NCBI RefSeq assembly: GCF_028737315.1
Contig: NZ_JAQZAO010000008.1
Span: 124,001 to 188,000 of the forward strand
From: Actinomycetospora lemnae
GTDB lineage: Bacteria; Actinomycetota; Actinomycetes; Mycobacteriales; Pseudonocardiaceae
Length of the DNA stretch: 64,000 nt
Reading direction: 5' to 3'
The notes below the pieces were generated by a model, which did no database searches, was not told the origin of the DNA, and saw nothing but the letters and a program-made list of their open reading frames with translations. The translations under genes were made by a program, and so were the position numbers. This document shows positions 5,890 to 63,400 of this stretch, piece after piece. Each line of letters starts with the position of its first letter. Position 1 is the first letter of the stretch.

Positions 5890-6342
5890 CTAGAGCACGT
5901 AGCGCAGGATGACCTCGGCGACGCACGCCGGCTTGGGCCACCCCTCGATCTCGACCGTCCCCCCGATGGTGGCCTGCACACCGTTCGCGACGTCGGTGAC
6001 GTCCACCAGGCGGCAGTGACCTCGCACACGGCTGGGCACGGGGACCGGTGACGGGAACCGGACCTTGTTCAGCCCGTAGTTCACCGTCATCGAGACGCCC
6101 TCCACCTGGAAGGTGTCCCACCCGAACTTCGGCATCAGGGCGACCGTCAGGAAGCCGTGGGCCACCGTCCGTCCGAACGGCCCGTGCTGGGCGCGCTCGG
6201 GATCGACGTGGATCCACTGATGATCGTCGGTGGCGTCGGCGAAGATGTCGACGCGGTGCTGGTCGACGGTCACCCACTCGCTGGTGCCGAGGTCCTCCCC
6301 CACCGCACCGCGCAGCTCCTCGACGTCGGCGAACACTCGCAT
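5890..6342 (-). CDS. MaoC/NodN-like enoyl-CoA hydratase
   Basis: A 150-residue single hot-dog protein. The MaoC catalytic pattern is visible as the Asp/His pair in FADATDDHQWIHVDPERA, followed by GPFGRTVAHGFLTV. Start ATG at 6342 with GAGGAG about 8 bases upstream. Members hydrate trans-2-enoyl-CoA (R-specific). It lies between the LLM oxidoreductase and the thiolase, which together suggests oxidation of a side chain or fatty acyl-CoA. Confidence 0.9.
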   Translation of the reverse strand: MRVFADVEELRGAVGEDLGTSEWVTVDQHRVDIFADATDDHQWIHVDPERAQHGPFGRTVAHGFLTVALMPKFGWDTFQVEGVSMTVNYGLNKVRFPSPVPVPSRVRGHCRLVDVTDVANGVQATIGGTVEIEGWPKPACVAEVILRYVL

Positions 6343-6353
6343 CCGGGGCTCCT

Positions 6354-7409
6354 CTAGAGGTCGGCGGCCAGTTGCTTGACCTGCCCGACCAACGACACCC
6401 GCTCGGCGGCCGTGCCCGCGAGCGGCGTGACGTTGATCGTGGTGACGCCGGCGGCGGCGAAGGCCTGCAGGCGCTCGGCGACGTACGAGCGCGACCCGAT
6501 CAGCGACATCGCCTTGACGAGGTCCTCGGGCACCGCCGCGGCGGCCTGGTCCTTCTTGCCGTCGAGGTAGAGGTCCTGGATCTGCTCCGCCTCCTCCTCG
6601 TAGCCGTAGCGCCGGGCGAGCTCGTTGTAGAAGTTCTTGCCCTTGGCGCCCATGCCGCCGACGTAGAGCGCGACGAACGGACGCATGCCGTCGAGCATCT
6701 GCTGGGCGGTGTCGGCGTCCTCGGTGATGCACAGCGACGCCTGCAGGTAGGTCTGCAGGTCGCCGAGCGCGGGGTCGCGCTTGGCCTTGCCGGCCTCGAG
6801 CGACTCGCCCCAGACCTCGTGCGCGCGCTCGGGCACGAAGAGGATCGGCAGCCAGCCCTCCGCGATCTCGGCGGTCAGCGCGACGTTCTTGGGGCCGATC
6901 GCGGCGAGCACGATGGGGATGCGATCGCGCACCGGGTGGTTGATGATCTTCAGCGGTTTGCCGAGCCCGGTGCCCTCCTCGGCGGGCAGTGGGATCCGGT
7001 AGTAGCGCCCGGAGTGCTGCACCTTCTCGCGGCGCCACACCTGCCGGCAGATGTCGACGATCTCGCGGGTGCGGGCGAGCGGGGCGTCGTAGCGCACCCC
7101 GTGGAACCCCTCGATGACCTGCGGGCCGGACGCGCCGATGCCGAGGGTGAAGCGCCCGCCCGAGACGTAGTCGAGGCCCGCGGCGGTCATGGCGGTCAGC
7201 GACGGGGTGCGCGTGTAGATCTGCAGGATCCCGGACGCGATCTCGACACGGCTGGTGCGCGCGGCGATGAACCCGAGCTGGCTGACCGCGTCGAAGCTGT
7301 AGGCCTCGGGCACGAAGACGATGTCCAGGCCCGCCGCCTCGTGCTCGGCGAGCTCGGCCACCGTCTCCTCGAACCCGCCGCTGTAGTTCAACCCCATCCC
7401 GATGCGCAC
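6354..7409 (-). CDS. LLM-class F420-dependent oxidoreductase
   Basis: A 351-residue luciferase-like monooxygenase-fold protein starting at GTG 7409 (VRIGMGLNYSGGFEETV). It has the usual TIM-barrel segments, including YVSGGRFTLGIGASGPQVIEG split as SGGRFTLGIG and GPQVIEGFHG, and GPKNVALTAEIAEGWLPI. The family in actinomycetes uses reduced coenzyme F420; it resembles the subgroup typified by mycobacterial Rv3520c. It is the first gene of the operon with MaoC and thiolase and is divergent from a thioesterase gene 57 bp away, so they probably share a promoter region. Confidence 0.88.
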   Translation of the reverse strand: MRIGMGLNYSGGFEETVAELAEHEAAGLDIVFVPEAYSFDAVSQLGFIAARTSRVEIASGILQIYTRTPSLTAMTAAGLDYVSGGRFTLGIGASGPQVIEGFHGVRYDAPLARTREIVDICRQVWRREKVQHSGRYYRIPLPAEEGTGLGKPLKIINHPVRDRIPIVLAAIGPKNVALTAEIAEGWLPILFVPERAHEVWGESLEAGKAKRDPALGDLQTYLQASLCITEDADTAQQMLDGMRPFVALYVGGMGAKGKNFYNELARRYGYEEEAEQIQDLYLDGKKDQAAAAVPEDLVKAMSLIGSRSYVAERLQAFAAAGVTTINVTPLAGTAAERVSLVGQVKQLAADL

Positions 7410-7466
7410 GCCGCGCAGCCTGTCACGATCGCGATGATCACGGCAGTACGGCGACGGGAGACGGGC

Positions 7467-7904
7467 GTGTTCACGACGACGGTGACGGTGCGCGGCTACG
7501 AGTGCGACGCCAACGGGCACGTCAACCACGCCGTCTACCACCAGTACGGCGAGCACGGGCGCACCGAGGCGCTGCGGGCGGCGGGCATCGACGTGCCGGA
7601 CCTGACCGCCGTCGGTCTCGGCCCGGTCATCCTCGAGTCGACGGTGCGCTTCCTCGCCGAGCTGCGGGTCGGCGACGAGGTCGAGGTGGCCCTGGACGTG
7701 CGCTTCGGGGAGGGCAAGACCTTCCGCATGGACACCGAGCTGCGCCGCGGCGAGCAGGTCTGCGCCACGCTCACCGGCGTCATGGGGCTGCTCGACCACG
7801 GCACGCGCCGGCTCGTCGCCGACCCCCGCGGCAAGCTCCTCGCGCTCGGCGACCCCCAGCGCGCGCCTCAGGTCCTCGGCGAGGCGTCCCCGTCGGAGAA
7901 GTGA
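7467..7904 (+). CDS. Acyl-CoA thioesterase, 4HBT hot-dog family
   Basis: A 145-residue hot-dog protein with the 4-hydroxybenzoyl-CoA thioesterase signature ECDANGHVNHAVYHQYGEH, where the Asp is the usual catalytic residue. GTG 7467 follows GGGAG; an in-frame ATG at 7434 is an alternative start. It would hydrolyse acyl-CoA to free acid and CoA. Its last 37 bases overlap the convergent flavin reductase gene, with no terminator palindrome between them. Confidence 0.85.
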   Translation: MFTTTVTVRGYECDANGHVNHAVYHQYGEHGRTEALRAAGIDVPDLTAVGLGPVILESTVRFLAELRVGDEVEVALDVRFGEGKTFRMDTELRRGEQVCATLTGVMGLLDHGTRRLVADPRGKLLALGDPQRAPQVLGEASPSEK

Positions 7905-50909: not shown

Positions 50910-50947
50910 GCGAACTCTCGAGCTATAGCTCGAAAGTCCGCTCACGT
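50904..50947. repeat. Palindromic element E, shared by two convergent stops
   Basis: ACGTGAGCGAACTCTCGAGC and its near complement around TATA. The TGA stop of phoD (50907-50909) and that of the minus-strand gene (50944-50942) are both part of the palindrome arms. Probably a bidirectional terminator. Confidence 0.75.
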
Positions 50948-51949
50948 GGGGACGGTGACCGCGCGGCTGCCGCCCGTCCAGCCAGGCAGGTGGAGCATCT
51001 TGATCCCCGGTCCGCCGGCGACGATCGCGAGGACCTCGGCGGCGCTCGCGTGGTCGGCGCCGGTGCGGGCGCGCAGGGCGGCGTCGGCGCGCTCGCGCAG
51101 GGCGGTCCTGGGGTCCCCGAACGGGGCGAGGCGGGCCGCGACCTCGGGCGGGAGCACGACGGCCTGGGTCATCCCGCGCCCGCGGGCGGGATCGCCGGCG
51201 GCGAGGACCGCGCCGGCGAGGGCGTCGGCGAGAGGGTCGAGCACCGCGTCCGGGTCGGGCCGGTCGTCGCGCGGCAGCACCTCCGCCGTCCCGCCGATCG
51301 GCAGCACCGTCACGGCGTTCGGGGCAGCGGGGTGTGGCAGCGAAGTGCCGTTACGGACGTTGAGTGTCCGTGACGGCACTTCGCTGACACGACGGGCCAG
51401 CGTGCCCCAGGGGCCGTCGGGGTCCTCGGCGAGGCAGCAGGTGTAGCGGGCGGGCTGGGCGGTGGTGGCCATCGCGGTGACGCCGGGGGCCGCGCCGCCC
51501 GCGGTGGCCAGCGTGAGGGCGAGCGCGCGACCGACCGCGCCGTTGCTGTGCGTGCCGGGCCCGAGCATGCCGGTGCCGTGGGTGAGGCCCAGCCGGTGCG
51601 CGACCGGGCCGGTGACGATCAACGCGATCGCGGCCGTGCCGGTCGTCGTCGCCACCCCGAGCATGTTGACCTCCGGCGCCAGGCACGCCGACGCCGCGGC
51701 GAGCACGACGGGCAGGGCCGCCGGCGGGGCGCCCGCGAGCACGCAGCAGGTGGCCGCCAGCCGTGGGGTCAGCTCGCCGAACAGCGGCGGCACCGCGCCG
51801 AGGACCGCGTCCGGGTCGGCGGTGCCGCCCAGCACGGCGTCCACCCGCGACGGCGTCGGCGGCACCACGGGCAGCCCGTCGCCGATCCCCGCGGCGAGCA
51901 GCGTCGCCGTCGCGTCGACGACGTCGGTGCCCTCGGGGACCGTCCTCAC
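50942..51949 (-). CDS. DGLPxVPPT-domain protein with in-frame palindromic repeat
   Basis: 335 residues from GTG 51949, overlapping the upstream stop by GTGA. It is the shortest of three homologous domains in this operon: IGDGLPVVPPTPSRVDAVL (residues ~21-40), LAGAPPAALPVVLAAASA, GTGMLGPGTHSNGAVGRALA and ARYTCCLAEDPDGPWGTLA match the same blocks of its two paralogs. Residues ~188-204 (VSEVPSRTLNVRNGTSL) have no counterpart in the paralogs and are exactly encoded by family A repeat copy 3. The enzymatic role is unknown; operon context ties it to the UGSC selenoproteins. Confidence 0.8.
   Translation of the reverse strand: MRTVPEGTDVVDATATLLAAGIGDGLPVVPPTPSRVDAVLGGTADPDAVLGAVPPLFGELTPRLAATCCVLAGAPPAALPVVLAAASACLAPEVNMLGVATTTGTAAIALIVTGPVAHRLGLTHGTGMLGPGTHSNGAVGRALALTLATAGGAAPGVTAMATTAQPARYTCCLAEDPDGPWGTLARRVSEVPSRTLNVRNGTSLPHPAAPNAVTVLPIGGTAEVLPRDDRPDPDAVLDPLADALAGAVLAAGDPARGRGMTQAVVLPPEVAARLAPFGDPRTALRERADAALRARTGADHASAAEVLAIVAGGPGIKMLHLPGWTGGSRAVTVPT
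51339..51385. repeat. Palindromic repeat, family A, copy 3, inside a coding gene
   Basis: AGCGAAGTGCCGTTACGGAC, GTTGAGT, and the complement GTCCGTGACGGCACTTCGCT. It is the most perfect copy of the family. It keeps the reading frame of the surrounding gene and adds about 16 residues. Confidence 0.85.
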
Positions 51950-52971
51950 GGCACCCGGCGCGACACCAGCGCGGTGCCGCCGAACGACGGGATCCACGCC
52001 GAGTGCTTGCCGGCCCCGCCCGCGACGGCGATGTGCAGGTTCGCGGGGTCGTCGCTGACCGTGTACGCCCTGTCGTGCGGCGGGCCGTCGGGCTCGACGC
52101 CCCACTCGACGAACTGCCGCCGGTTGCCCGGCGAGACGTGCTCGACCGGGATGCGGGCGTGCTCCCACAGGTGCGCGCGGATGGTCTCGGGCGTCCAGCC
52201 GTCGCGGTGCAGCGTGGCGGCGTGCTCCGGGCCGAGCAGCAGCAGGTGCGGGCCGCGCACGTAGACGTTGTTCGAGCCGGGCTGGGCCATGGTCCCGGCG
52301 ACGGTCAGCAGGATCTCGGCGCCGGTGGTGCTGCCGTGGTCGTTGACGTTGTGCGGCGGCTCGGCGGCCATGACGGACACGACGCCCTCGTCCGCGCCGA
52401 ACCCCCGGCGGACCGCGAGCGACGGCCACGGCGAGTCGTCGGACTCCCCGCAGCAGTACGTGTACTTCGCCGGCGACCCCTGCGTACTGCGGTCCAGCAC
52501 CCCGGGCCGCGCGCCGCCGACGTGGAGCAGCACGAGCGAGAGCGCCCGCCCGATCACCGCGTTCGCGCGGGTGCCCTGCCCGAGGCAGTTGCCGCCCGCG
52601 TTGATCCCCAGCGCGTCGCGCACCGGGCCCGAGACCAACACCATCGGCGCGCACGGGTGCGTCGTGGCGAGCGTGCCGTGCAGGTTGTACGCCTCGTCCT
52701 GCACGGCGGCGAGCGCCGCGAGCAGCACCGGCAGGTCCGCGGGCCGGCACCCGGCCATCACCGCGTTCGCCGCGACCGAGCGCAGCGTCGGCGTCACCCC
52801 GCGCGGCGGCAGGGGTCCGAGGTCGACGCGCGGAGCGCCGGCCAGCATCGCCGCCACCCGCTCCTCGGTCGGCGGCACCATCGGGAGCCCGTCGCCCCAG
52901 CCGCGCTCCTCGCAGGCGGCCATCCAGTCCCAGGCGTCGTCGACGTCGGGCAGGTCCAGGACGTCGCTCAT
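51946..52971 (-). CDS. DGLPxVPPT-domain protein of the UGSC operon
   Basis: 341 residues from ATG 52971, which overlaps the stop of UGSC1 (ATGA). Blocks: RGWGDGLPMVPPTEERVAAM (~18-37), NAVMAGCRPADLPVLLAALA, GGNCLGQGTRANAVIGRALS, AKYTYCCGESDDSPWPSLAV, and later GPHLLLLGPEHAATLHRDGW. Several Cys (MAGCRP, GNCLGQ, YCCGE) sit in conserved places and could be redox-active or bind metal. No family function known to me. It is a free-standing version of the C-terminal domain fused to UGSC2. Confidence 0.8.
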   Translation of the reverse strand: MSDVLDLPDVDDAWDWMAACEERGWGDGLPMVPPTEERVAAMLAGAPRVDLGPLPPRGVTPTLRSVAANAVMAGCRPADLPVLLAALAAVQDEAYNLHGTLATTHPCAPMVLVSGPVRDALGINAGGNCLGQGTRANAVIGRALSLVLLHVGGARPGVLDRSTQGSPAKYTYCCGESDDSPWPSLAVRRGFGADEGVVSVMAAEPPHNVNDHGSTTGAEILLTVAGTMAQPGSNNVYVRGPHLLLLGPEHAATLHRDGWTPETIRAHLWEHARIPVEHVSPGNRRQFVEWGVEPDGPPHDRAYTVSDDPANLHIAVAGGAGKHSAWIPSFGGTALVSRRVP

Positions 52972-53534
52972 GACAGCTCCCCCATCGACCGCAGCTCCGC
53001 GACGACCCCCGCGTAGGCCGTGTCCGTCCGCCCCGCGAGCTCGTCGGGCGAGAGACCGCCGACGGGGTGGTCGACGACGACGAGCCGCGGCTCGGCGCGC
53101 CGGGCCGTGGCCTGCGCCTGCACCAGCGGCAGGAACGACGACGTGACGACGAGGATCGAGCGCACGCCGCGGCGCTCGAGCTCCAGCGAGTCGTGGAGAC
53201 TCCACGACGAGCACGAGCCTCAATCGCCGATGGCGACGACGGCGAGCCGGTACTGCGCGGCGAGGTGGTCGAGCAGCTCCGGGTCGGCGCCGACCGCCGC
53301 GCTCGGCTTGGCCTCCAGCCCGTTGGGCCCGAGCCCGTGGTCGTCGGCGAGGCGGCGCCCGATGGCGTCGAGGATGTCGTGGGCGCCGGGCTTGGAGTTG
53401 GAGAGCCCGCACACGGCACGCGACGCAGCGGAGCTGCCGTCACCGCGCCGGGTCCCGGCCGGGGCGTCCGCGGCAGTCGTGACCGCGGCGGTGTCCTCCG
53501 GCGCGGTCCCGGACGTCGGGTCGACGATGCGCAT
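52968..53534 (-). CDS. UGSC-motif selenoprotein 1 (in-frame TGA = Sec105)
   Basis: 188 residues if TGA 53222-53220 is read as selenocysteine. ATG 53534 (MRIVDPTSG) overlaps the upstream stop (TGATG). Upstream of the TGA the frame has ASRAVCGLSNSKPGAHDILD and LAVVAIGD; then U105-GSC-SSWSLHDSLELERRG continues in the same frame as a well-formed alpha/beta domain to a TGA at 52968. A thioredoxin-like U-x-x-C pair is formed (U105, C108). A 7-8-bp hairpin with GU in its loop lies 15-33 nt after the U (see SECIS). Curated databases use the name UGSC family (seleno)protein; function is unknown. Alternatives: a pseudogene or two genes, but the homolog at 55.7 kb has TGA at the same place. Confidence 0.82.
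53190..53208 (-). promoter_or_regulatory. Candidate bSECIS hairpin, UGSC1
   Basis: In RNA: GUCGUGG, loop AGUCU, CCACGAC (7 bp; 8 with a 3-base loop). Counting the U of UGA as 1, the stem spans 15-33 and the loop G and U are at 23 and 24, the same numbers as the essential G23/U24 of the E. coli fdhF element. The bulged U17 of fdhF is not matched (C17). Confidence 0.6.
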
Positions 53535-54358
53535 CAGGCCTCCTCGAGGTGGGCGACGACGGCGCGCCCGGCGCGCAGGCCGTCCGCGGCGGCGGTGAGC
53601 AGGTAGCGCTCGGCGCCGGTGACGTCGCCCGCGGCCCACACCGGGGCCTCGGCGGGCAGCCCGTCGAGCAGCTCCCGGCGCGGGTCGGCGTGGGTGTAGA
53701 CGAAGACCCCCGACGCCTCGAGGACCTCGCCGTCGTCGAGGCGCACGCCGCCGAGCGTCCCGTCACCCTCGAGCGCGGTGATCGCGGCCGACCGCACCTC
53801 CACGGCGTCGGCCAGGCGGCGGGTCAGCGCCGCCGACCACGCCGGCGCGGTGCTCACCAGCGTCACCCGCTTCGCGATCCCGGCGAGCTCGAGCGCCTCG
53901 TGCGCGGTCCACTCGTCGTCGCCGACGACCACCACCTCGCGCCCGGCGTGCAGCGGCCCGTCGCAGGTGGCGCAGTGCGACAGGCCGCGACCCTCCCACC
54001 CGTCGGCGCCGGGGACGTCGAGACGACCGGGCGTCCGACCGGTGGCGACGACGACCGCCCGCGCCGTCACCGGGCCCTCGGCGCCGTCCACGGTGAGCGG
54101 GTCGGTGCGCAGGCCCGTGACCTCGCCGTAGGCGATCTCGACCCCGCGCTCCACCACGTCGGTGAGCAGCGCGCCCATGAGGTCGGGGCCGCTGGTGGGC
54201 GGGCCCGGCCAGTCGGCGAGCGTGCCGAGGTTGATGAGCTGCCCGCCCGGCGCGAGCGCGTCGTGGGCGACGACGGCGAGCCCCCGCTCGGCGCAGGCCC
54301 GGGCCGCCGTCAGACCGGCGATGCCGGCCCCCACCACGACGACGTCGACATCGGTCAC
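53534..54358 (-). CDS. Thioredoxin reductase-like NAD(P)/FAD flavoprotein
   Basis: 274 residues from GTG 54358, overlapping the UGSC2 stop (GTGA). FAD motif VVVGAGIAGLTAARA (residues ~7-21), APGGQLINLGTLADWPG, redox-active CATC at C129-C132 (LSHCATCDGPLHAGREV), C-terminal VWAAGDVTGAERYLLTAAADG. The second nucleotide motif reads VVVGDDEWTAHEALELAG, so the usual GGGDSA is altered, which may change the electron donor. No thioredoxin is adjacent; its partners may be the flanking UGSC proteins. Confidence 0.9.
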   Translation of the reverse strand: MTDVDVVVVGAGIAGLTAARACAERGLAVVAHDALAPGGQLINLGTLADWPGPPTSGPDLMGALLTDVVERGVEIAYGEVTGLRTDPLTVDGAEGPVTARAVVVATGRTPGRLDVPGADGWEGRGLSHCATCDGPLHAGREVVVVGDDEWTAHEALELAGIAKRVTLVSTAPAWSAALTRRLADAVEVRSAAITALEGDGTLGGVRLDDGEVLEASGVFVYTHADPRRELLDGLPAEAPVWAAGDVTGAERYLLTAAADGLRAGRAVVAHLEEA

Positions 54359-56064
54359 GGCGACCCCTCCTCGATCCGCCGGCTCACCGGCACGCCCTGC
54401 ACGTGGTTCTGCACGAAGCCGCGGGACTGGTTCCGGCTCGCGTTGCCCGCCAGCACGATCCCGATGTCGGCCGCGCGCGGCACCATCGGCACGAGCCGGT
54501 CGGGGTCGTCGCCGGCGTAGCGCTCGTCGAGCTCCCCGGCGGCGACGACCGCGTCGAGGTCGAAGCTCGTCGAGCCGACGTTCCACGCACACGCCTGGAG
54601 CTGGCGCACCGGCACCCGCATGTGCTCGGCGAGGTGGCGGCGCAGCGCGTCCTTGTCGACGCCGAAGCCCGCGAGCGCCCGCGCCACCGCCGGCCCGAGC
54701 ACGAGCAGCGGGTGGAAGGCGCCGAACTCGATCCCGGTGTACGCCCAGGGCCCGATCGCGTTGCCGAAGATCGTGGTCAGCGCGTCGAGGTGATCGGCCG
54801 CGCTCTCGCCGCCCGAGTAGATCGGGGCGCTGACGGCGACGACGCTCTGCACCGTCACGACGCTGTCGCCCTCGGCGAAGCCCCGGTCGACGCGGAACGG
54901 CGGCCAGCCGAGGTCGCGCACCGCGGCGTCGTCCTCGGCCAGCGCGACGTGCCAGGTCGAGGCGATCGCGCCCTGGTCGGTCTGCCCGGGCGGGATGCGC
55001 AGGCCCGCGACGTTGCGCAGGTAGAGCCGCAGGAACCGCCCGACCGCGGTGTTCGCGCGCCGCCCGACCCGTAGCGCGCCCGTGCCGCTGTGGAACCCGA
55101 GGCGCTCGACGACCGGCCCCGAGAGCACCACGAGGGGCTCCCACCCCGGCGTCGAGCCCGCGTCCTGCACCCGGAACACCGGGTCCGCGACGCACGCGAC
55201 GATCGCGAGCAGCACCGGCAGGTCCTGCGGGCGGCAGCCGGCCATGACGCCGTTGACCGCGACGCTGCGCACCGTCGCCCGCCGCAGCTCGGGGGCGAGG
55301 ACGCCGAGCACCTCGTCGGGGTCCCGGCGCGTGTGGTCGAGGAACGCGGCGACGCGCTCCGGGGTCGGCGGGACGATCGGCAGGCCGTCGGTCCAGCCGC
55401 GCGCCTCGAAGGCGTCGGTGATCGCGTCGAGGTCGCCGCGCGCGACGACCTCGGTGGGGCCGTGGTCGGTCGCGTCCGGCTCCTCCTGGACGGCCGTGGC
55501 CGAGCCCGCCACCAGCGCGTCCACCACCGCCGGCGCGACCTGCTCGCGCATCTTCGTCCGGAACACCTCGCCGGTGTCGGTGAGGATCACGCCCGGGTAG
55601 CTGACGATCGGGACGTGCCCGACGCCGAGCGACCTGCCGACCGCCCGGCCCATCCCCTCGAACCCCGCGCCGCCGATCGCGACCGCCGGCACCCCGGCGC
55701 GCTCGGCGGTGGCCGCTGCCCGCATCACGGCAGGCATGCAGGAGCCTCAAGCACCGACGGCGGCGACGACGAGGTCGACGCGGTGGGCGCGCAGCAGCTC
55801 GGGCAGCGCGTCGAGCACCCGGCGCTCCTCGGCGGCCGAGGCGTGGAAGTTGCCGAACTCCTCCCACCCGACGAACTCGACCTCGCCGTGCCGCTCGCGC
55901 GCCACCTGCGAGATCACGTCGAACATCTCCGGGCCGCGGAAGAGCTCGTCCCAGAGGTAGGCGACCCGCCGGCCGCGCAGCGTCTCGGGACGCTCGTGCT
56001 CGGCGACGTCGCCGACCTCCCGCGGACCGAGCGGACCCAGGACCTCGTAGCGAGGCTCGCTCAC
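54355..56064 (-). CDS. UGSC-motif selenoprotein 2 fused to a DGLPxVPPT domain (in-frame TGA = Sec106)
   Basis: 569 residues if TGA 55749-55747 is selenocysteine. GTG 56064 has GGGGGAG 4 bases upstream and follows the MFS stop by 10 bp. N-terminal part: YLWDELFRGPEMFDVISQVA, LLRAHRVDLVVAAVGA, then U106-GSC-MPAVMRAAATAERAGVPAV and HVPIVSYPGVILTDTGEVFR, homologous to UGSC1 on both sides of the TGA. From ~205 on it carries the DGLP domain (RGWTDGLPIVPPTPERVAAF, NGVMAGCRPQDLPVLLA, GRRANTAVGRFLRL) to the end. A separate gene starting at ATG 55737 is possible, but it would cut a conserved domain and has no ribosome site. Confidence 0.82.
55716..55733 (-). promoter_or_regulatory. Candidate bSECIS hairpin, UGSC2
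   Basis: In RNA: CUGCC, loop GUGAUGCG, GGCAG. Counting the U of UGA as 1, the stem spans 17-34 and G22-U23 open the loop. It is weaker than the UGSC1 hairpin but in the same window after the UGA. Confidence 0.45.
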
Positions 56065-56074
56065 GGTGCTCCCC

Positions 56075-57394
56075 CTACTCGTCCGCGGTGATGACGCGAC
56101 CGGCGCGGTCGCGCAGGAACAGGGCGGCGACGGTGACGATCGCGGCGCCGACGACGGCGATGCCGACCGCGATGCCGTAGCCGGCGCTCGTCGCGACGAC
56201 GCCGCCGATGATCGTCCCGATGCCGGACAGCCCGCGGCCGACGTTGTAGGCCGCCGCCGACCCGAGCGAGCGGATGCGGGTCGGGAACAGCTCGCCGAAC
56301 CACACGCCGAAGATGCCGAAGTAGCCGAGGAACAGGCTGGACGCGAGGTAGAGCCACACGAAGTTGCCCAGCCCCTCGCCGCCCAGGGCGAGCACGAGCA
56401 TCACGGCGAACGTGACGGTCTGCAGCGCGGCGAACGCGACGAACACCGGGCGTCGGCCCCAGCGGTCCGAGAGCCAACCCGCGAGGATGAACCCGACGAA
56501 CGAGATCGCGGCGGCGACGTAGAGCACGGTGCTGGCGGTGCCCGCGTCGAAGCCGAGGTCGGACTTGAGCATCGAGGGCATCCAGGCCGTCGCGGTGTAG
56601 GGCACCCACTGCGCGCCGAACGCGACGACCAGCCCCACCAGCACGATCGGCAGCGAGTCGCGCGCCACGAGCTGGCGCCACGTCGAGCGGGCCGCCTTCG
56701 CCGCGGTCGCGTCGGTGAGCAGGCCCTCCGCCTTGCGGCGCTGCAGCTCCTCCCACTGCCGCGACTCGCGGCAGGCGAAGCGGATCCAGACGCACGCGAG
56801 CGCCGGCAGGACGCCGATGAGGAAGGCCACGCGCCAGTCGACGACGAGCTGGGCGACGAGCACCGCCAGCGCGTACGCCGGCCACAGCGAGGCCTGCACC
56901 AGGCCGCCGCCGAGGCCCCGGCGCTTCGGTGCCCACGCCTCGTTGAGCCACGCGAACCCGACCGCCCACTCGCCGCCGGTGCCGACGCCGGTGAGCACCC
57001 GGAGCACGACGAACACCGCGAAGTTCGGGGCGAAGAACACGAGGCCCGTGGCGACCGAGTAGATCAGGATCGACCAGATCAGGGTCCGGCGGCGGCCGTA
57101 GCGGTCGCCGAGCCAGCCGAAGAGCACTCCCCCGATCGCCGAACCGACGAGCTGGCCCGCGATGGCCACCCCGAACACGCCGGCGGAGACGCCGTAGTGC
57201 GCCATGATCGCGCCGGCGAGCAGCGTCGGGAGCATGAAGTCGAAGTACTCCATGCCCCAGCCGAGGCAGGCCGCGCCGAGGATGCGGCGGCGCTCGCCGG
57301 GGGTGTACTCCGGCGACTCGGCGACGGAGGCCGTCGCCCCGGTGGTCGTGGTGGTGCCGCCCCGTGCCGGCGGACGGTCCTGCTCGGCGGTCAT
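56075..57394 (-). CDS. MFS transporter (organic acid:H+ symporter type)
   Basis: 439 residues from ATG 57394 behind GGAGGAG. Twelve helices; metabolite:H+ symporter marks: GWGMEYFDFMLPTLLAGAIM in helix 1 and LFGWLGDRYGRRRTLIWSIL in loop 2-3, then VGTGGEWAVGFAWLNEAW. Relatives import aromatic acids, lactate, sialic acid or other carboxylates. First gene of the operon with UGSC2; GATTGGATACGA lies ~90 bp upstream. Suggests uptake of the compound processed by the operon. Confidence 0.88.
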   Translation of the reverse strand: MTAEQDRPPARGGTTTTTGATASVAESPEYTPGERRRILGAACLGWGMEYFDFMLPTLLAGAIMAHYGVSAGVFGVAIAGQLVGSAIGGVLFGWLGDRYGRRRTLIWSILIYSVATGLVFFAPNFAVFVVLRVLTGVGTGGEWAVGFAWLNEAWAPKRRGLGGGLVQASLWPAYALAVLVAQLVVDWRVAFLIGVLPALACVWIRFACRESRQWEELQRRKAEGLLTDATAAKAARSTWRQLVARDSLPIVLVGLVVAFGAQWVPYTATAWMPSMLKSDLGFDAGTASTVLYVAAAISFVGFILAGWLSDRWGRRPVFVAFAALQTVTFAVMLVLALGGEGLGNFVWLYLASSLFLGYFGIFGVWFGELFPTRIRSLGSAAAYNVGRGLSGIGTIIGGVVATSAGYGIAVGIAVVGAAIVTVAALFLRDRAGRVITADE

Positions 57395-57480: not shown

Positions 57481-57492
57481 GATTGGATACGA
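57481..57492. promoter_or_regulatory. Candidate GntR operator 1
   Basis: GATTGGATACGA, identical to 58231-58242. It lies between the gntR stop and the MFS start, upstream of the selenoprotein operon. Confidence 0.6.
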
Positions 57493-57498
57493 TCTCGG

Positions 57499-58173
57499 CT
57501 ACGACCGGGGCGGTAGCCCCAGCGCGGCGTGGAGGTCGGCGACGGTGTGGTCGCGGTGCGCGTCCATGAGCGCGACCACCGCCTCGAGGTCCCCGCGACG
57601 CAGCGCGGTGATCATCTTGCGGTGCTCGCGGACGACCCGGGATCGGCCGGCGGAGTCGTAGAGGTGCACGGTCCGGTAGGGCTCGCTGCGCCGCCAGAGC
57701 CGGGCGATCTCGTCGACGACGAGGTCGAGGCCCGACAGCCGGAACATCGCGAAGTGGAAGGCCTGGTTGGCCGCGACGATGCCGGCGACGTCGACCCGCT
57801 CGACCTGCTCGCCGATCGCCTCGTTGAGGCCGGTGAGCTCCCGGAGCTGGTCCGCGGACAGCTTGGGCAGCGCACGCAGCACCTCGGTCTCCAGGGCCCG
57901 GCGCATGAGGTAGACCTGCGCGAGCTCGTCGGCGTTGAGCCGCGCCACGGCGTAGCCGACGTGCGGCTCGTGGCGCAGGACACCCTCGGCCTCGAGCGTC
58001 TTGAGCGCCTCGCGCACCGGGATGCGGCTCACGCCGAGGCGCGCGGCGAGCGTCTCCTGGCGGACCTGCTGGCCGGGCACGAGCTCGCGCGAGCGCAGCA
58101 TCCGGCGGATCTCCTCGACCGCGCGCTGCACGCTCGTCGCCCGCCGCGCGGGCTCCGTCTCGGTTGTGACCAC
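57499..58173 (-). CDS. GntR family regulator (FCD/FadR type)
   Basis: 224 residues from GTG 58173 after GGAGGTGGGGGC. N-terminal winged helix: VEEIRRMLRSRELVPGQQVR, LGVSRIPVREALKTLEAEG. The C-terminal FCD domain has the metal/ligand pattern MRRALETEVLRALP, NQAFHFAMFRLSG and VREHRKMITALRRGD with the conserved His residues. FCD regulators sense carboxylic acids. It lies between two operons that each have GATTGGATACGA upstream, so it probably controls both. Confidence 0.92.
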   Translation of the reverse strand: MVTTETEPARRATSVQRAVEEIRRMLRSRELVPGQQVRQETLAARLGVSRIPVREALKTLEAEGVLRHEPHVGYAVARLNADELAQVYLMRRALETEVLRALPKLSADQLRELTGLNEAIGEQVERVDVAGIVAANQAFHFAMFRLSGLDLVVDEIARLWRRSEPYRTVHLYDSAGRSRVVREHRKMITALRRGDLEAVVALMDAHRDHTVADLHAALGLPPRS

Positions 58174-58230: not shown

Positions 58231-58242
58231 GATTGGATACGA
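58231..58242. promoter_or_regulatory. Candidate GntR operator 2
   Basis: GATTGGATACGA in the divergent gap between gntR and the acyl-CoA synthetase gene, 53 bp before the latter's start. Identical to 57481-57492. Confidence 0.6.
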
Positions 58243-58294: not shown

Positions 58295-60442
58295 GTGAGG
58301 TCCGAGAGCCCCGTGAGCCGTGCGGGCCGTGTGGGCGCCGCTGCCACCGACTGGCACCGGGTGCTCGCGCCGCGCTCGGTCGCCCTCGTGGGCGCGACCG
58401 GGCGCGCGGACAACCCCATGGCGCGGCCGCTGCGCTGGCTCACCGAGCGGGGCTTCGCGGGCCGGGTGCACCCGGTCAACCCCAAGTACGACGAGCTGGG
58501 CGGCGTGCCCTGCGCGCCCTCGCTCGCCGACGTGCCGGGCGGCGTCGACCTCGTCCTCGCCCTCGTGCCCGCCGAGCGCGCCGCGTCGACCGTGACCGAG
58601 GCCGGGGCGGCCGGCGCGGCCGCGGTGGTCGTGTTCGCCTCCGGTTTCGCCGAGGTCGGCGAGGCGGGCCGCGCGCGCCAGGAGGAGCTGGTCGCGGCGG
58701 CGTGGGCGGCCGGCACGCGCGTGCTCGGGCCCAACTGCCAGGGGCTCTACGACGCCCGCAGCCGCCTGTTCGCGACGTTCACCGGGGCCGGCGAGCGCCC
58801 GCTGACCGGGTCCAGCGGCATCGCCTACGTCGGGCAGAGCGGGGCGATCGGGGGCGCGGTGCTCGACGTCGCCGCCGAGCGGGGGCTGGACCTGTCGGCC
58901 TGGGTGAGCACCGGCAACGAGGCCGACGTGACGCTCACCGAGGTCGGCCGCCACCTCGTCGCCGACCCCGACATCTCCGTGCTCACCGTCTACGCCGAGT
59001 CGCTCCCGGACCCGGACGACTACGCCGCCCTCGCCGCCGAGGCCGCGGCCGCCGGCACCGCACTGGTGGTGCTGCGGTCGGGACGCTCGGCGCCCGGACG
59101 CCGGGCCGCCGTCTCGCACACCGGCGCGATGCTCGGCGACGACACCGCGTTCACCCTCGTCTCACGGCGGTACGGCGTCGTGCTGGTCGACGACGTCGAG
59201 GAGCTGCTGGCCGCGGCGACGATGCTGCGGGGGCGCCGGGGTCCCGCCGGACGCGCGCTCGGGCTCGTCACCAGCTCCGGCGGCGCCGGCATCCTCGCCG
59301 CCGACCGGGCCAGCGAGGCCGGGCTCGCGGTCCCCGAGCTCGACGAGCGCACCCGGGAGAAGCTCGCGCGCCTCGTCCCCGACTTCGGTGCGGTGGCGAA
59401 CCCGGTCGACGTCACCGCGCAGCTGTTCAACGACGGCGGCTCGTTCGGCGAGGTGTGCGGGATCGTGCGCGCCGACCCGGGCGTCGACGCGGTGCTCGTG
59501 CTGCTGACGATGCTGGTCGGCGAGACCGCCGACGCCCTGGCCCGCGACCTCGCCGCCACCGTCGCCGAGCAGGGTCCCGACGCCCCGCCCGTCGCCGTCG
59601 TGTGGATGGCGGGCGAGGACGGCACCGCCCCCGCCCGGGCGGTGCTGCGCGAGGCCGGGGTGCCGGTGTTCTCGTCGATCGCGCTCGCGGTGCGGGTGCT
59701 CGACGCCGTCGCCGCCGGGCCCGGAGCCGCGCCGGCGCCACGGGAGCCCCTCGACCCCGTGCCCGGCGACGGCTGGGAGCTCCTCGACGCCCTCGGCGTG
59801 CGCCGGCCCTGGGCCGCGATCAGCACCGACCCCGCGCACACCACCGCGGCCGTCGCCGAGCTCGGGGGCCGGGCGGTGCTCAAGGTCGAGGGGCTCGAGC
59901 ACAAGACCGAGGCGGGCGCGGTGCGCCTCGACGTGCCGACCGACACCGCCGCGGCCGTCCACGCCGAGCTCGCGGCCCTGCCCGGCGCCACCGGCGTGCT
60001 CGTGCAGGAGCGGGTCCCGGGCGGGGTGGAGCTGCTGGTGTCGGTCGACGGCGGGCGCGACGGCTGGCCGCCGGTGCTGACCGTCGGCCACGGGGGCACG
60101 GCGACCGAGGTCCACCGCGACGTCGTCCACGCCCTCGCCCCGGTGACGCCGGAGACGGCCCGGTCGATGCTGGGCTCGCTGCGCTGCTGGCCGCTGCTCG
60201 CCGGGCACCGCGGCGTCCCGGGCGTGGACCTCGACGCGGCCGTCGACGCGATCGTCCGGATCTCCCGCGCCGCGGCCCTCCCCGGCCTCGGCGAGCTCGA
60301 GGTCAACCCGCTGGTCCTCCCGCCACCGAGGAGTGCCAGCGTGGCGTCCACGCTGGCACCGGACGACAGGATCGCCACCCGCTCGGATCCGCGACACGCC
60401 GAGGGAGCGATCGCCGTGGACGTGCTCAGGACGGAGACGTAG
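58295..60442 (+). CDS. NDP-forming acyl-CoA synthetase (acetate-CoA ligase family)
   Basis: 715 residues from GTG 58295; GTG 58313 (VSRAGRVG) is an alternative. Domains: CoA-binding (~25-130; RSVALVGATGRADNPMARPL), ligase-CoA flavodoxin-like (~155-470; GIAYVGQSGAIGG, SHTGAMLGDD), ATP-grasp (~500-715; AVLKVEGLEHKTEAGAVRLD, VQERVPGG). It makes acyl-CoA from acid, CoA and ATP. Residues ~679-702 stand between ELEVNPLVL and GAIAVDVL, which adjoin in the family; they are coded by repeat B3. First gene of the divergent catabolic operon. Confidence 0.9.
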   Translation: MRSESPVSRAGRVGAAATDWHRVLAPRSVALVGATGRADNPMARPLRWLTERGFAGRVHPVNPKYDELGGVPCAPSLADVPGGVDLVLALVPAERAASTVTEAGAAGAAAVVVFASGFAEVGEAGRARQEELVAAAWAAGTRVLGPNCQGLYDARSRLFATFTGAGERPLTGSSGIAYVGQSGAIGGAVLDVAAERGLDLSAWVSTGNEADVTLTEVGRHLVADPDISVLTVYAESLPDPDDYAALAAEAAAAGTALVVLRSGRSAPGRRAAVSHTGAMLGDDTAFTLVSRRYGVVLVDDVEELLAAATMLRGRRGPAGRALGLVTSSGGAGILAADRASEAGLAVPELDERTREKLARLVPDFGAVANPVDVTAQLFNDGGSFGEVCGIVRADPGVDAVLVLLTMLVGETADALARDLAATVAEQGPDAPPVAVVWMAGEDGTAPARAVLREAGVPVFSSIALAVRVLDAVAAGPGAAPAPREPLDPVPGDGWELLDALGVRRPWAAISTDPAHTTAAVAELGGRAVLKVEGLEHKTEAGAVRLDVPTDTAAAVHAELAALPGATGVLVQERVPGGVELLVSVDGGRDGWPPVLTVGHGGTATEVHRDVVHALAPVTPETARSMLGSLRCWPLLAGHRGVPGVDLDAAVDAIVRISRAAALPGLGELEVNPLVLPPPRSASVASTLAPDDRIATRSDPRHAEGAIAVDVLRTET
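60332..60386. repeat. Palindromic repeat, family B, copy 3, inside a coding gene
   Basis: TGCCAGCGTGG, CGT, CCACGCTGGCA is a perfect hairpin, followed by CCGGACGACAGGATCG as in copies 1 and 2. It keeps the frame of the acyl-CoA synthetase and adds about 24 residues just before the last strand. Confidence 0.75.
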
Positions 60443-61191
60443 TGGGCGGCATCGGGCTGGAGATCACCGACGGCGTGGCGCTGCTGACCGTCGACGCGCC
60501 CGAGGTCCGCAACGCCCTGACGCCAGCGATGGGGCGCGAGCTCGCCGAGGCGTGCGACGCCGTCGACGCCGACCGCTCGGTGGGCGCCGCCGTCGTCCGC
60601 GGCGCGAACGGCACGTTCTGCTCGGGCGCCGACCGCCGCACCTGGAACCCCGGCGCCGACCAGGCCGAGGACACCGCCTTCCGTGACACCGGCGCGGTCT
60701 ACGGCGCGTTCCGGCGCGTCGGCACCCTGGCCGTCCCGACGATCGCCGCCGTCCGTGGCGCGGCGGTGGGCGCCGGGCTCAACCTCGTGCTCGCCACCGA
60801 CCTGCGCGTCGTCGCCCGCGACGCGCGCCTGCTCGCGGGCTTCCTGCGCATCGGCCTGCACCCCGGCGGCGGCTTCTTCACGATCGCCTCGCGCACCGCC
60901 GGACGGGAGGCGACCGCGGCGATGGGCCTGTTCGGCGAGGAGATCGACGGCACCCGGGCGGCGGAGCTCGGCCTGGCCTGGCGAGCGGTCGACGACGCCG
61001 ACGTCGAGGACACCGCGCTCGCGCTGGCCGCCGTCCCCGCCCGCGACCCCGACCTCGCCCGCGAGGCCGCCCGCTCGTTCCGCACCGAGACCGGCCCGCC
61101 CGGCCTGCCGTGGGACGCGGCCGTGGAGTTCGAGCGCGCCACGCAGATGTGGAGCCAGCGCCGGCGGGCGTCCCGGGAGGACAGCCGATGA
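60442..61191 (+). CDS. Enoyl-CoA hydratase/isomerase
   Basis: 249 residues from GTG 60442, overlapping the stop of the synthetase gene (TAGTG). Crotonase landmarks: DAPEVRNALTPAMGRELAEA, ANGTFCSGADRRTW and RGAAVGAGLNLVLATDLRVV. The segment where the first catalytic Glu is expected reads GFLRIGLHPGGGFF, as in atypical members, so hydratase activity is not certain. Stop overlaps the next gene by ATGA. Confidence 0.88.
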   Translation: MGGIGLEITDGVALLTVDAPEVRNALTPAMGRELAEACDAVDADRSVGAAVVRGANGTFCSGADRRTWNPGADQAEDTAFRDTGAVYGAFRRVGTLAVPTIAAVRGAAVGAGLNLVLATDLRVVARDARLLAGFLRIGLHPGGGFFTIASRTAGREATAAMGLFGEEIDGTRAAELGLAWRAVDDADVEDTALALAAVPARDPDLAREAARSFRTETGPPGLPWDAAVEFERATQMWSQRRRASREDSR

Positions 61192-62333
61192 TCTTCGACC
61201 CGACCCCGCTCTCCCCCGCCGAGGAGGAGCTGCGCGCCGAGGTGCGCGCCTGGCTCGCCGACGTCCTGCCCGCCGACTTCCGCCCCGGCCTGGGCCTCGG
61301 CGGGCGCCACGACCCGGAGTTCACCCGCGCGCTCGCGCGGCGCGGCTGGATCGGCATGTCGATCCCGACCGGGTACGGCGGCGCCGGCGCCAGCACGGTG
61401 CGGCGGTTCGTCGTCGTCGAGGAGCTCCTCGCCGCGGGCGCCCCGATCGCCGCGCACTGGATCGCCGAGCGCCAGACCGCCCCCGCCCTGCTGCGGTTCG
61501 GCACCGAGGAGCAGCGGCGCTGGTTCCTCCCCCGCATCGCGGCCGGCGAGTGCTGGTTCTCCCTCGGCATGAGCGAGCCCGACGCCGGCTCCGACCTCGC
61601 GTCCGTCCGCACCGCCGCCAGCCGCGTCGAGGGCGGCTGGCGCGTCACCGGCACCAAGGTCTGGACCACCAATGCCCACCTCAACCACTTCGCCGTCGTC
61701 CTGTGCCGCACGAGCCCGCAGGGCGACGGCGACCGCCACGCCGGGCTGTCCCAGCTGATCGTCGACCTCGGCGCCGACGGCGTGCAGGTCTCGCCGATCC
61801 CGCTGATCGACGGCGAGGAGCACGTCAACGAGGTGGTGCTCGACGGCGTGTTCGTGCCCGACGAGCGCGTCCTCGGCGAGGTCGGGCAGGGCTGGCGGCA
61901 GGTGACCGCCGAGCTCGCCCACGAGCGCTCCGGTCCCGACCGCTACCTCTCGGTGCTCGGGCTCTACCGCGCGTTCCTCGCGGTCCACGGCAGGGAGCCC
62001 GACGACGTCCGCGCCGCCGCGATCGGCCGCATCGGCGCGCAGCTCTGGGCGATCCGCCAGCTCTCGCTCGCCGTCGCGCGCTCGCTGGAGCAGGGCGAGG
62101 CGCCCGCCGTGGAGGCGTCGCTGGTCAAGGACGTCGGGACGACGTTCGAGCAGCAGGTCGTCGAGACCCTGCGCGACGTCGCCGGCGGCGAGATCGACCC
62201 GGGAGGCCCGACGATGTTCGACCGGCTGCTCGCCGAGTGCGTGCTCAACGCCCCGACGTGGACGCTGCGCGGCGGCACCACCGAGGTCCTGCGCGGCATC
62301 GCGGCCAAGGCCCTGACCAGGAGCGCGCGGTGA
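61188..62333 (+). CDS. Acyl-CoA dehydrogenase
   Basis: 381 residues from ATG 61188. Family marks: SIPTGYGGAGASTVRRFVVV, CWFSLGMSEPDAGSDLASVR (FAD and substrate site), GTKVWTTNAHLNHF, and the C-terminal TWTLRGGTTEVLRGIAAKAL. The Gly-Gly-Thr-Thr-Glu replaces the usual EGTxE, so the base may lie elsewhere as in the FadE26/28-like class. It pairs with the next, more degenerate gene, a pattern known for heteromeric actinobacterial dehydrogenases of sterol and side-chain breakdown. Confidence 0.9.
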   Translation: MIFDPTPLSPAEEELRAEVRAWLADVLPADFRPGLGLGGRHDPEFTRALARRGWIGMSIPTGYGGAGASTVRRFVVVEELLAAGAPIAAHWIAERQTAPALLRFGTEEQRRWFLPRIAAGECWFSLGMSEPDAGSDLASVRTAASRVEGGWRVTGTKVWTTNAHLNHFAVVLCRTSPQGDGDRHAGLSQLIVDLGADGVQVSPIPLIDGEEHVNEVVLDGVFVPDERVLGEVGQGWRQVTAELAHERSGPDRYLSVLGLYRAFLAVHGREPDDVRAAAIGRIGAQLWAIRQLSLAVARSLEQGEAPAVEASLVKDVGTTFEQQVVETLRDVAGGEIDPGGPTMFDRLLAECVLNAPTWTLRGGTTEVLRGIAAKALTRSAR

Positions 62334-63400
62334 CGGCGATCCTGGACGTGACCGAGGTCCGCGACGCCGTCGCCGACCTGCTCGCCGACCGCGTGGACCC
62401 CGCCGTCCTCGAGGCCGCCGAGCGCGACGGGTGGGCCGCCGGGGTGTGGGAGCCGCTGCACGCGGGCGGGTTCACGACGGTCGGCGTCCCCGAGAGCGCC
62501 GGCGGCGCGGGCGGGTCGGTGGCCGAGGCGTGCGCGGTGCTCGAGGCCGCCGGGGCGGCGTCCGCGCCCGTGCCGGTGGCCGAGACCGGGCTGCTCGCCG
62601 GGCGCCTGCTCGCCTCGGCGGGGCTCGCGCTGCCCGACGGGCCGCTGACTACCGGCACGGGCGAGGTCTCCCTCCGCGACGGCACGCTCGCCGGACGCCT
62701 CGCCCGCGTGGCGTGGGCCCGGCAGGCGGCGCGGATCGTGCTGGTCGCCGACGACGCCGACGGCGCGCCCGTCGTCGCCGTCGTCGACCCGGCCTCGGCC
62801 CGGATCGCGCCCGGCAGGAACCTCGCCGGCGAGCCCCGCGACGCCGTCGACCTCGACGGCGTGGTCCCCGAGACGACGGCCCCGGCGCCCGCCGACGCCC
62901 GCGACGCCCTCGCGCGCCGCGGAGCGCTCGCGCGCGCGGCGATGATCGCGGGCGCCGCTCGGCGGGTCGGCGAGCTGACCGTCGCCTACACCGGCGAGCG
63001 CGTGCAGTTCGGACGCCCGGTGTCGCGGTTCCCCGCCGTCGCCGACCACCTCGTGCGCATCGCCGAGCAGGCCGAGATGGCCGCGATCGCCGCCCGGTCG
63101 GCGGCGGCGTCGGCCGGCGACGGCGAGCCCGCGGCCCTGGAGGTGGCCGCGGCGGCGGCCGTCGCGTCCGAGGCGGCGGGGCTCGTCGCCGCCGCCGCGC
63201 ACCAGGCGACCGGCGCGATGGGCGTGACCCGGGAGTTCGCGCTCGGCGTCCTCACCCGCCGGCTGTGGTCGTGGCGCGACGAGTGGGGTGGCGAGCGGGC
63301 GTGGGCGACGCGCCTGGGCCACACTCTCGCGGCGGGCGGCCCGGAGGCGCTGTGGCCGACGCTCTCGCGAGGGCTGCGACACGCGGCGGAGCGGAGCTGA
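62330..63400 (+). CDS. Acyl-CoA dehydrogenase-like second subunit
   Basis: 356 residues from GTG 62330, overlapping the upstream stop (GTGA). Short and poor in FAD motifs: GGFTTVGVPESAGGAGGSVA, then TVAYTGERVQFGRPVSRFPA and AAHQATGAMGVTREFALGVL. It lacks the TEPxAGSD-type segment, so it probably forms a heterodimer or heterotetramer with the preceding dehydrogenase, which supplies the missing site. Confidence 0.87.
   Translation: MTAILDVTEVRDAVADLLADRVDPAVLEAAERDGWAAGVWEPLHAGGFTTVGVPESAGGAGGSVAEACAVLEAAGAASAPVPVAETGLLAGRLLASAGLALPDGPLTTGTGEVSLRDGTLAGRLARVAWARQAARIVLVADDADGAPVVAVVDPASARIAPGRNLAGEPRDAVDLDGVVPETTAPAPADARDALARRGALARAAMIAGAARRVGELTVAYTGERVQFGRPVSRFPAVADHLVRIAEQAEMAAIAARSAAASAGDGEPAALEVAAAAAVASEAAGLVAAAAHQATGAMGVTREFALGVLTRRLWSWRDEWGGERAWATRLGHTLAAGGPEALWPTLSRGLRHAAERS

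Follow-up and report, generated by a model that had tools for sequence, protein, structure and literature searches.

A UGSC-DGLP fusion selenoprotein encoded in an operon of Actinomycetospora lemnae and its probable remote kinship with GrdB and PrdB

Organization of the locus

The 64,000-nucleotide stretch of the Actinomycetospora lemnae genome analysed here (the window; contig NZ_JAQZAO010000008.1 of assembly GCF_028737315.1, positions 124,001 to 188,000) carries a gene that joins a UGSC selenoprotein domain to a second domain, DGLP, in one polypeptide. The gene lies on the minus strand at 54355..56064, starts with GTG, and ends with a TGA stop at 54357-54355. When TGA is read as selenocysteine (Sec or U), translation from 56064 to 54355 yields a frame of 569 residues whose sole internal TGA is codon 106 (55747..55749, minus strand), flanked as GA-U-GSC-MP. 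This Sec codon forms a U-x-x-C motif with Cys109. The UGSC domain covers residues 8-185 (55510..56043, minus strand) and belongs to the UGSC family by its match to PF24696 (86.9 bits, cut-off 25); its score against NF041046 is 45.3 bits, below the cut-off of 125. From about residue 194 onward, the protein consists of a full DGLP domain (54358..55485, minus strand) that is homologous to the products of two genes further along, 52971-51946 and 51940-50942, and that contains a near-invariant cysteine, Cys277, at 55236-55234. A hairpin resembling a selenocysteine insertion sequence (SECIS), TGCCTGC-CGTGAT-GCGGGCA, occupies 55717..55736 on the same strand, with its loop 17 nucleotides past the Sec codon, and is kept in relatives. 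The preliminary description of this DNA had proposed the internal TGA, its flanks, and the fusion to DGLP from the letters alone, and translation and homology confirm all three.

The fusion is part of a minus-strand run from 58173 to 50942 that encodes, in order, a GntR/FCD-type transcription regulator, a major facilitator superfamily (MFS) transporter, the fusion, a thioredoxin reductase-like (TrxR-like) flavoprotein, UGSC1, DGLP a, and DGLP b. The regulator (57499..58173) matches Pfam FCD with 75.8 bits and GntR with 56.2 bits, both over the cut-offs, and the transporter, counted as the first gene of the run (56075..57394), matches MFS_1 with 147 bits (cut-off 33.4). The flavoprotein (53534..54358; Pyr_redox_2, 68.2 bits, cut-off 26.1) has a CATC motif and a probable GTG start at 54358; its analyses were run on 53534-54361. 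UGSC1 (52968..53534) is a stand-alone Sec protein by homology, with TGA at 53222-53220 in the context IGD-U-GSC. It scores 111.4 bits against NF041046, likewise below the cut-off, and a single comparison with the UGSC part of the fusion (UGSC2) gave 36% identity over 50 residues (E 1e-4), in keeping with the proposal that the flanks of the two TGA codons are homologous. DGLP a (51946..52971; model mean predicted local distance difference test, pLDDT, 90.7) and DGLP b (50942..51940) were both assigned by homology, and DGLP b lacks the near-invariant cysteine (it reads LAGAPP). The fusion stop overlaps the probable GTG of the flavoprotein gene, and the same kind of stop-start overlap joins the flavoprotein gene to the ATG of UGSC1 and UGSC1 to the ATG of DGLP a (ATGA). 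The genes from the fusion to DGLP b overlap or nearly touch, and by this anatomy they would form a single transcription unit.

Decoding of the internal TGA

The TGA at codon 106 is almost certainly decoded as selenocysteine because the genome encodes SelA, SelB, and a tRNA-Sec with the anticodon UCA. SelA scored 399.4 bits (cut-off 267.9), SelB 265 bits (cut-off 242.25), and the tRNA-Sec 73.5 bits (cut-off 47), with the anticodon assigned by ARAGORN. The assembly is 6.06 Mb long and 99.7% complete, and it contains three UGSC copies, all of them with TGA. The third copy (L013, contig C21, 8510-7997) reads LAD-U-GSC and belongs to another subgroup, with a DGLP gene immediately upstream in the same orientation. 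The presence of SelA by itself says little because 282 of 390 genomes of the same bacterial family have it.

Further evidence comes from relatives of the fusion. A search of the 390 family genomes found full-length matches in 15 other genomes at 38-95% identity. Contamination or an assembly error was rejected in view of this recurrence, and the fused gene is evidently not peculiar to this locus. The site is TGA in each of the 16 fusions read in the family set, including the one in the window. Public genomes were scanned with the fusion alignment and with peptide patterns that leave out the Sec site, which yielded 76 loci. By their titles these belong to Actinomycetota, Pseudomonadota, and Chloroflexi, and many are metagenome bins. 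The UGSC site was TGA in 76 of 76 loci, so a mutational origin of the codon, which the preliminary description had considered very unlikely, was rejected. The protein sequence past the TGA is conserved across phyla.

The site also changes in the ways that would be expected of a Sec codon. In a relative from the same order (G390), the site is TAG in both UGSC matches, and the tRNA-Sec, labelled Pyl by ARAGORN, has the anticodon CUA; the two TAG-site copies are unfused. UAG-coded UGSC proteins have already been published for Geodermatophilaceae (PMC5330540). After short, low-scoring, or gappy matches were dropped, 137 distinct UGSC domains remained, of which 102 have U at the site, 31 have C, and four could not be assigned with the motif applied. 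Among fused relatives, six carry Cys; two genomes that show no SelA match are among the sources of such Cys fusions. UGSC matches over the Pfam cut-off occur in 75 family genomes, and three of these (G663, G716, and G427) lie outside the set with a SelA match. The UGSC copies of G663 (four) and G716 (two) are all stop-free, as are the copies listed for G568, whose SelA match is weak (2.7e-10).

The hairpin provides another line of evidence. The same six-base loop, starting 17 bases past the TGA, is present in 26 of 27 distinct 24-base stretches. When folding energies were compared with synonymous codon shuffles, the mean z was -2.24 at the site (19 of 27 below -2) and -0.08 in control windows of the same genes, although the 27 sequences are not independent by descent. 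At the level of the family, a SECIS-like hairpin is thus kept more strictly than the encoded protein requires, and the comparison supports a role for it in UGA decoding.

A true stop at the TGA followed by a restart at an ATG nine bases on, giving two proteins, would be a rival to this reading. The window does have an ATG at 55737 with GAGG a few bases upstream. However, an ATG directly follows UGSC in only 11 of 75 fusion-type sites (the others have Thr codons in 63 and GCG in one), so a downstream start is not conserved. The TAG codons of G390 with their CUA tRNA-Sec, the fused Cys relatives, and the hairpin kept at family level also speak against a stop, and a restart would split the UGSC fold in two. 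The preliminary description had named, as contrary evidence, close orthologs that consistently end at the TGA and have a separate downstream start; the comparison does not bear this out. The stop-and-restart explanation is therefore extremely improbable, and both Sec decoding and the fusion itself are near certain on comparative grounds.

Two variants deserve mention. In G657, a one-frame UGSC-DGLP copy (L152, about 3721-2092) has TGA followed by SGC, so that the motif order is U-S-G-C. On the Acidovorax plasmid NZ_CP021650.1, a frame at 5983-7524 (L290) has a single TGA at 6271-6273 and continues through DGLP; the gene table of this record, which is stated to be incomplete, shows only a 96-residue hypothetical protein that ends at 6273. 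It seems that the Acidovorax selenoprotein was cut at the TGA by annotation.

Partnership of UGSC and DGLP

UGSC runs into DGLP in one frame in 72 of the 76 scan loci (L236 is counted as fused, though its UGSC part spans two frames). The four others are L232, where DGLP is in the next frame; L235 and L238, where the stretch ends before the DGLP match; and L234, which has separate genes and belongs to another subgroup. The two domains also occur as separate neighbours. In a class-wide sample of 394 genomes, 23 had UGSC, and 33 stretches were assembled from the 31 around those matches, the third copy of the A. lemnae genome, and the window. UGSC and DGLP share a strand in 31 of the 33, and they are no more than 340 bases apart in 30; in L050 the distance is 5.9 kb, and L058 and L064 have no DGLP in the stretch covered. 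The window copy is the sole fusion in this sample.

How often did the fusion arise? In a tree built from 100 of the 137 UGSC domains, 36 of its 37 Sec fusions fell into a single 40-row group (support 100/100) that extends from Actinomycetota to Pseudomonadota; the group's other four members are copies that are separate or broken. One Sec fusion (L151) was placed inside the UGSC1 type, indicating at least two fusion events. Cys fusions L145, L146, L147, L149, and L150 form a further group, which may share its origin with the main Sec fusion group, and L148 sits apart from these groups on a long branch of uncertain position. That the same two domains were fused repeatedly strongly suggests a joint function, and the placement of DGLP within 340 bases in 30 of 33 loci points the same way. 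It is very likely, as the preliminary description had surmised from the fusion, that UGSC and DGLP work together. Two further fusions, on a Sporomusa plasmid (L287, 5334-6954) and a Vibrio plasmid (L291, 5397-6975), each one open frame, have MGTS where U-G-S-C would stand, and aconitase X genes lie in the same stretches.

The DGLP domain has about 340 residues and is without a Pfam family. A Pfam search with 43 members gave a best E of 0.0014, in two members, with scattered families, and on the plasmid records examined the DGLP genes are called hypothetical protein wherever the gene is shown. A search of Protein Data Bank (PDB) sequences with the fusion and with DGLP gave nothing meaningful. 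The stand-alone DGLP model has a pLDDT of 90.7 and a predicted template modeling score (pTM) of 0.91, and its fold search against the PDB gave no match with E < 1e-3.

The near-invariant cysteine of DGLP is present in 136 of 149 copies. It is absent from DGLP b of the window and from the fused Cys-UGSC proteins L145, L146, L147, and L150, and for this reason it is unlikely to be a universal catalytic residue. The loss in DGLP b (LAGAPP) is common to three close relatives (L166, L167, and L168). The operon may use a DGLP with the cysteine and one without it together.

The fold search bears on a different view of the protein, in which DGLP would be a hydro-lyase-like enzyme, UGSC would serve as a binding or redox-switch domain, and Sec would not be the catalytic nucleophile. 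Class I fumarases make up 14 of the first 16 PDB rows for the DGLP model, with a best E of 4.7e-3, and the two fused MGTS relatives, whose stretches each include an aconitase X gene, would fit as well. However, the query TM-scores in the 14 fumarase rows are only 0.21-0.30, and profile comparison of DGLP with class I fumarase (Fumerase, PF05681) gave 0.1-0.5%. Moreover, the UGSC site holds Sec or Cys in 133 of 137 domains, the other four being those unassigned by the motif. The hydro-lyase view is thus quite improbable.

Relationship of UGSC to GrdB and PrdB

UGSC has been called likely thioredoxin-like (PMC2398784), and a 2026 review lists it with thioredoxin-fold proteins (PMC13188914). The AlphaFold model of the fusion (47 sequences; mean pLDDT 88.4, pTM 0.88) has a different topology, which makes a thioredoxin-like fold for UGSC unlikely. 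The modelled UGSC domain has an alternating beta/alpha topology in which Sec sits at the junction of a strand and a helix. A Foldseek search of the fusion against the PDB gave no match with E < 1e-3; the 50 listed rows include receiver-like and flavodoxin-like proteins and no thioredoxin.

Profile comparison points to GrdB and PrdB, which are the Sec-containing subunits of glycine reductase and D-proline reductase, respectively. Against PrdB and GrdB combined, hhalign gave 96.4% for fused Sec domains, 92.8% for stand-alone domains, 84.1% for stand-alone Sec domains, 80.4% for stand-alone Cys domains, and 94.9% for all 137 rows. Of the 18 alignments between six query sets and three targets, 16 placed the Sec positions opposite each other. 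In column shuffles against the combined profile, the best score of 100 was 31.0 versus a real score of 67.4 for the fused set and 17.1 versus 50.6 for the stand-alone set; against PrdB, the best of 200 was 22.6 versus 42.6. The negative controls, UGSC with the fumarase profile and DGLP with PrdB and GrdB, gave 0.1% and 0.5%, respectively, and DGLP compared with UGSC gave below 1%.

The resemblance extends to the sequence around Sec. UGSC and the GrdB/PrdB family (PF07355) share the register U-G-x-x ... E-R-A-G-[IV]-P at +15 to +20. In GrdB/PrdB, as in UGSC, Sec stands before a helix; PrdB-like rows have UxxC, and many rows have U ... E-[KR]-x-G-[IV]-P at the same distance. Among Actinomycetota, short PrdB-like proteins carry U-P-x-C, and often E-x-x-G-[IL] too, at places matching UGSC. 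PrdB-like genes with UPxC are frequent among 198 genomes of Actinomycetota, and a set of GrdB and PrdB-like frames from this phylum (L241-L249 and L253-L269) end exactly at the TGA in the Sec position.

In contrast to GrdB/PrdB, UGSC has no match to PF07355 at the level of HMMER, has DGLP as its partner, and has no GrdE-like partner that could be found. GrdE is the pyruvoyl partner of GrdB. PF09338 (GrdE/PrdA) had no match among those window genes that were submitted to Pfam, a part of the total; PF07355 had none in the A. lemnae genome; and no DGLP was found beside GrdB or PrdB genes at E < 0.1 in 16 stretches. Taken together, UGSC is a probable remote relative of GrdB/PrdB and not a member of that family.

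Electron supply and genomic context

The neighbouring genes suggest a likely reductant for UGSC-DGLP. A TrxR-like CxxC protein is encoded in 26 of the 76 scan loci, in both Actinomycetota and Pseudomonadota, against 0.63 expected in the 0.96 Mb searched. This expectation uses the density in the A. lemnae genome (4 matches in 6.06 Mb) and is indicative, since the loci are related. TrxR-like genes are the neighbour most common across phyla. In a survey of 169 genes around 21 loci (a 22nd, L232, gave none), 94 and the window flavoprotein were submitted to Pfam, and Pyr_redox_2 and TctC transport receptors led the neighbour matches with eight each. An Arthrobacter plasmid carries an annotated trxB-trxA-DGLP-UGSC run with a Cys UGSC, and a Variovorax plasmid has trxB near DGLP, again with a Cys UGSC. 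The window resembles such trxB-trxA operons in having a CxxC flavoprotein in the same stretch as a Sec or Cys protein. It differs in that its flavoprotein is short (about 274 residues) and scores 142.1 on the NCBIfam TrxR model against a cut-off of 343.45. No thioredoxin gene was identified beside the window flavoprotein; this was checked by a WCxxC motif scan alone, whose two matches lie far from it.

Two exact copies of the operator-like word CGTATCCAATC flank the GntR gene, one between the regulator and transporter genes (57481..57491, minus strand) and the other in the divergent promoter region (58231..58241, minus strand); 0.17 were expected in the window at no more than one mismatch. Words of the form GTATCCAA stand at comparable places in L165, L166, and L168 and at one place only in L167 and L169, and none were seen in six other named loci checked. 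The CGTATCCAATC copies are probably the GntR operator for two divergent operons. The divergent genes (58295-63400) encode a coenzyme A (CoA) ligase, an enoyl-CoA hydratase, and acyl-CoA dehydrogenases, which suggest an organic acid substrate; a role in catabolism is suggested by the GntR regulator and MFS transporter. The CoA ligase, MFS, and GntR genes have relatives in close kin only; for the enoyl-CoA hydratase and acyl-CoA dehydrogenase genes, relatives were found in some further loci. Because this pathway context is matched in close kin only, no substrate is claimed.

Proposed function

How might the fusion work? We infer the mechanism and the kind of substrate from the comparisons above. 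UGA 106 is almost certainly decoded as Sec by SelA, SelB, and tRNA-Sec, probably aided by the hairpin just past the codon. DGLP would hold a small organic substrate, and the selenolate of U106 would attack this substrate or join in its reductive cleavage. A selenenylsulfide between U106 and C109 would form, and NAD(P)H would re-reduce it through the adjoining TrxR-like protein, with or without thioredoxin as an intermediate. Together with DGLP a and DGLP b, UGSC1 would make up a duplicate of this machine within the operon. The reading of the fusion as one Sec protein, with UGSC as remote kin of GrdB/PrdB and DGLP as its partner, acting as a thioredoxin-fed reductase in small-molecule catabolism, has about an even chance of being right as a whole. 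Comparison supports three of its parts: a single Sec protein, the UGSC-DGLP partnership, and the association with disulfide-reductase flavoproteins.

Several observations weigh against this reading. As to decoding, G427 has no SelA match and one TGA copy (its assembly is 83% complete), and G677, a draft assembly in about 500 contigs, has a weak SelA match (1.4e-6) and a TGA copy. The hairpin of the window itself has a z of -1.08, with 23 of 200 shuffles as stable, and an Rfam search of 14 kb around the locus found no SECIS, its one sub-threshold snoRNA match being due to chance. As to the kinship, HMMER found no PF07355 match in the fusion at E up to 1, and stand-alone UGSC gave only 5.1-18.8% against PrdB alone. 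Two of the 18 alignments, both against GrdB alone, miss Sec on Sec (one is off by one residue), and one of 100 shuffles reached 30.6%. DGLP gave 0.1% against the GrdE profile, although one of the four rows of that alignment is a solute-binding protein and not GrdE; without a relation between DGLP and GrdE, the analogy to glycine reductase is partial. As to the enzyme, 50 of the 76 loci have no TrxR-like gene within the stretch covered (many contigs are short), the DGLP cysteine is missing in 13 of 149 copies, and the MGTS fusions, which come from Sporomusa and Vibrio plasmids, indicate that the scaffold also occurs with neither Sec nor Cys.

The U-x-x-C motif and the TrxR-like or thioredoxin neighbours would also be compatible with a role in thiol homeostasis or peroxide defence, in which UGSC-DGLP would be a thioredoxin-fed peroxidase or disulfide reductase and not a reductase in the catabolism of carbon compounds. 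Such a role appears unlikely. The alternating beta/alpha model and the lack of thioredoxins among its 50 PDB rows, none of which has E < 1e-3, do not suit it, nor does control by a GntR regulator, and the neighbours include transport receptors, MFS transporters, CoA-transferases, and amidohydrolases.

Within the catabolic reading, a more specific version is possible but tentative. It holds that UGSC-DGLP is a widespread, largely aerobic-lineage counterpart of the clostridial glycine and proline reductases, performing thioredoxin-fed, selenium-dependent reductive cleavage with DGLP in place of the pyruvoyl subunit, the fusion being the one-chain version. The analogy is drawn because of the profile match and the reductant; glycine reductase is supplied by thioredoxin (PMC10298544), like the supply proposed here. 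Such a system would be found in bacteria of soil, fresh water, and the sea, and its Cys relatives would include those of haloarchaea.

Relation to known selenoproteins and significance

UGSC selenoproteins and a UGSC fusion are already known. UGSC has been in print as a major selenoprotein family since 2008, and the Global Ocean Sampling selenoproteome includes a UGSC/Unknown_1 fusion (Fig. S1A) and reports that the fused unknown domains hold a conserved Cys as a rule (PMC2398784). Like the protein described here, UGSC/Unknown_1 joins UGSC to a conserved domain of unknown function; Unknown_1 and DGLP were compared by description only, and the available passages of that paper name no UGSC partner or reductant. 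The present protein shares the domain and its Sec/Cys site with the PF24696/NF041046 family, but its subfamily is fused to DGLP and scores below the NF041046 cut-off while being above that of Pfam. In the literature searched, which includes few subscription journals and no bioRxiv preprints, the word UGSC occurs in 15 papers, some of which concern other matters, and a single paper, in a table, names the family as such or by its accessions. No mention of DGLP as the partner, of a reductase neighbour, or of a kinship of UGSC with GrdB/PrdB was seen in the portions of text available.

Automatic annotation can truncate genes of the UGSC-DGLP type at the UGA, as the Acidovorax plasmid illustrates. 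A partner domain, a likely reductant, and a probable remote kinship with the glycine and proline reductases make an orphan family into a testable enzyme system. If the proposal is true, the chemistry of anaerobic amino-acid fermenters would have a large counterpart in other bacteria.

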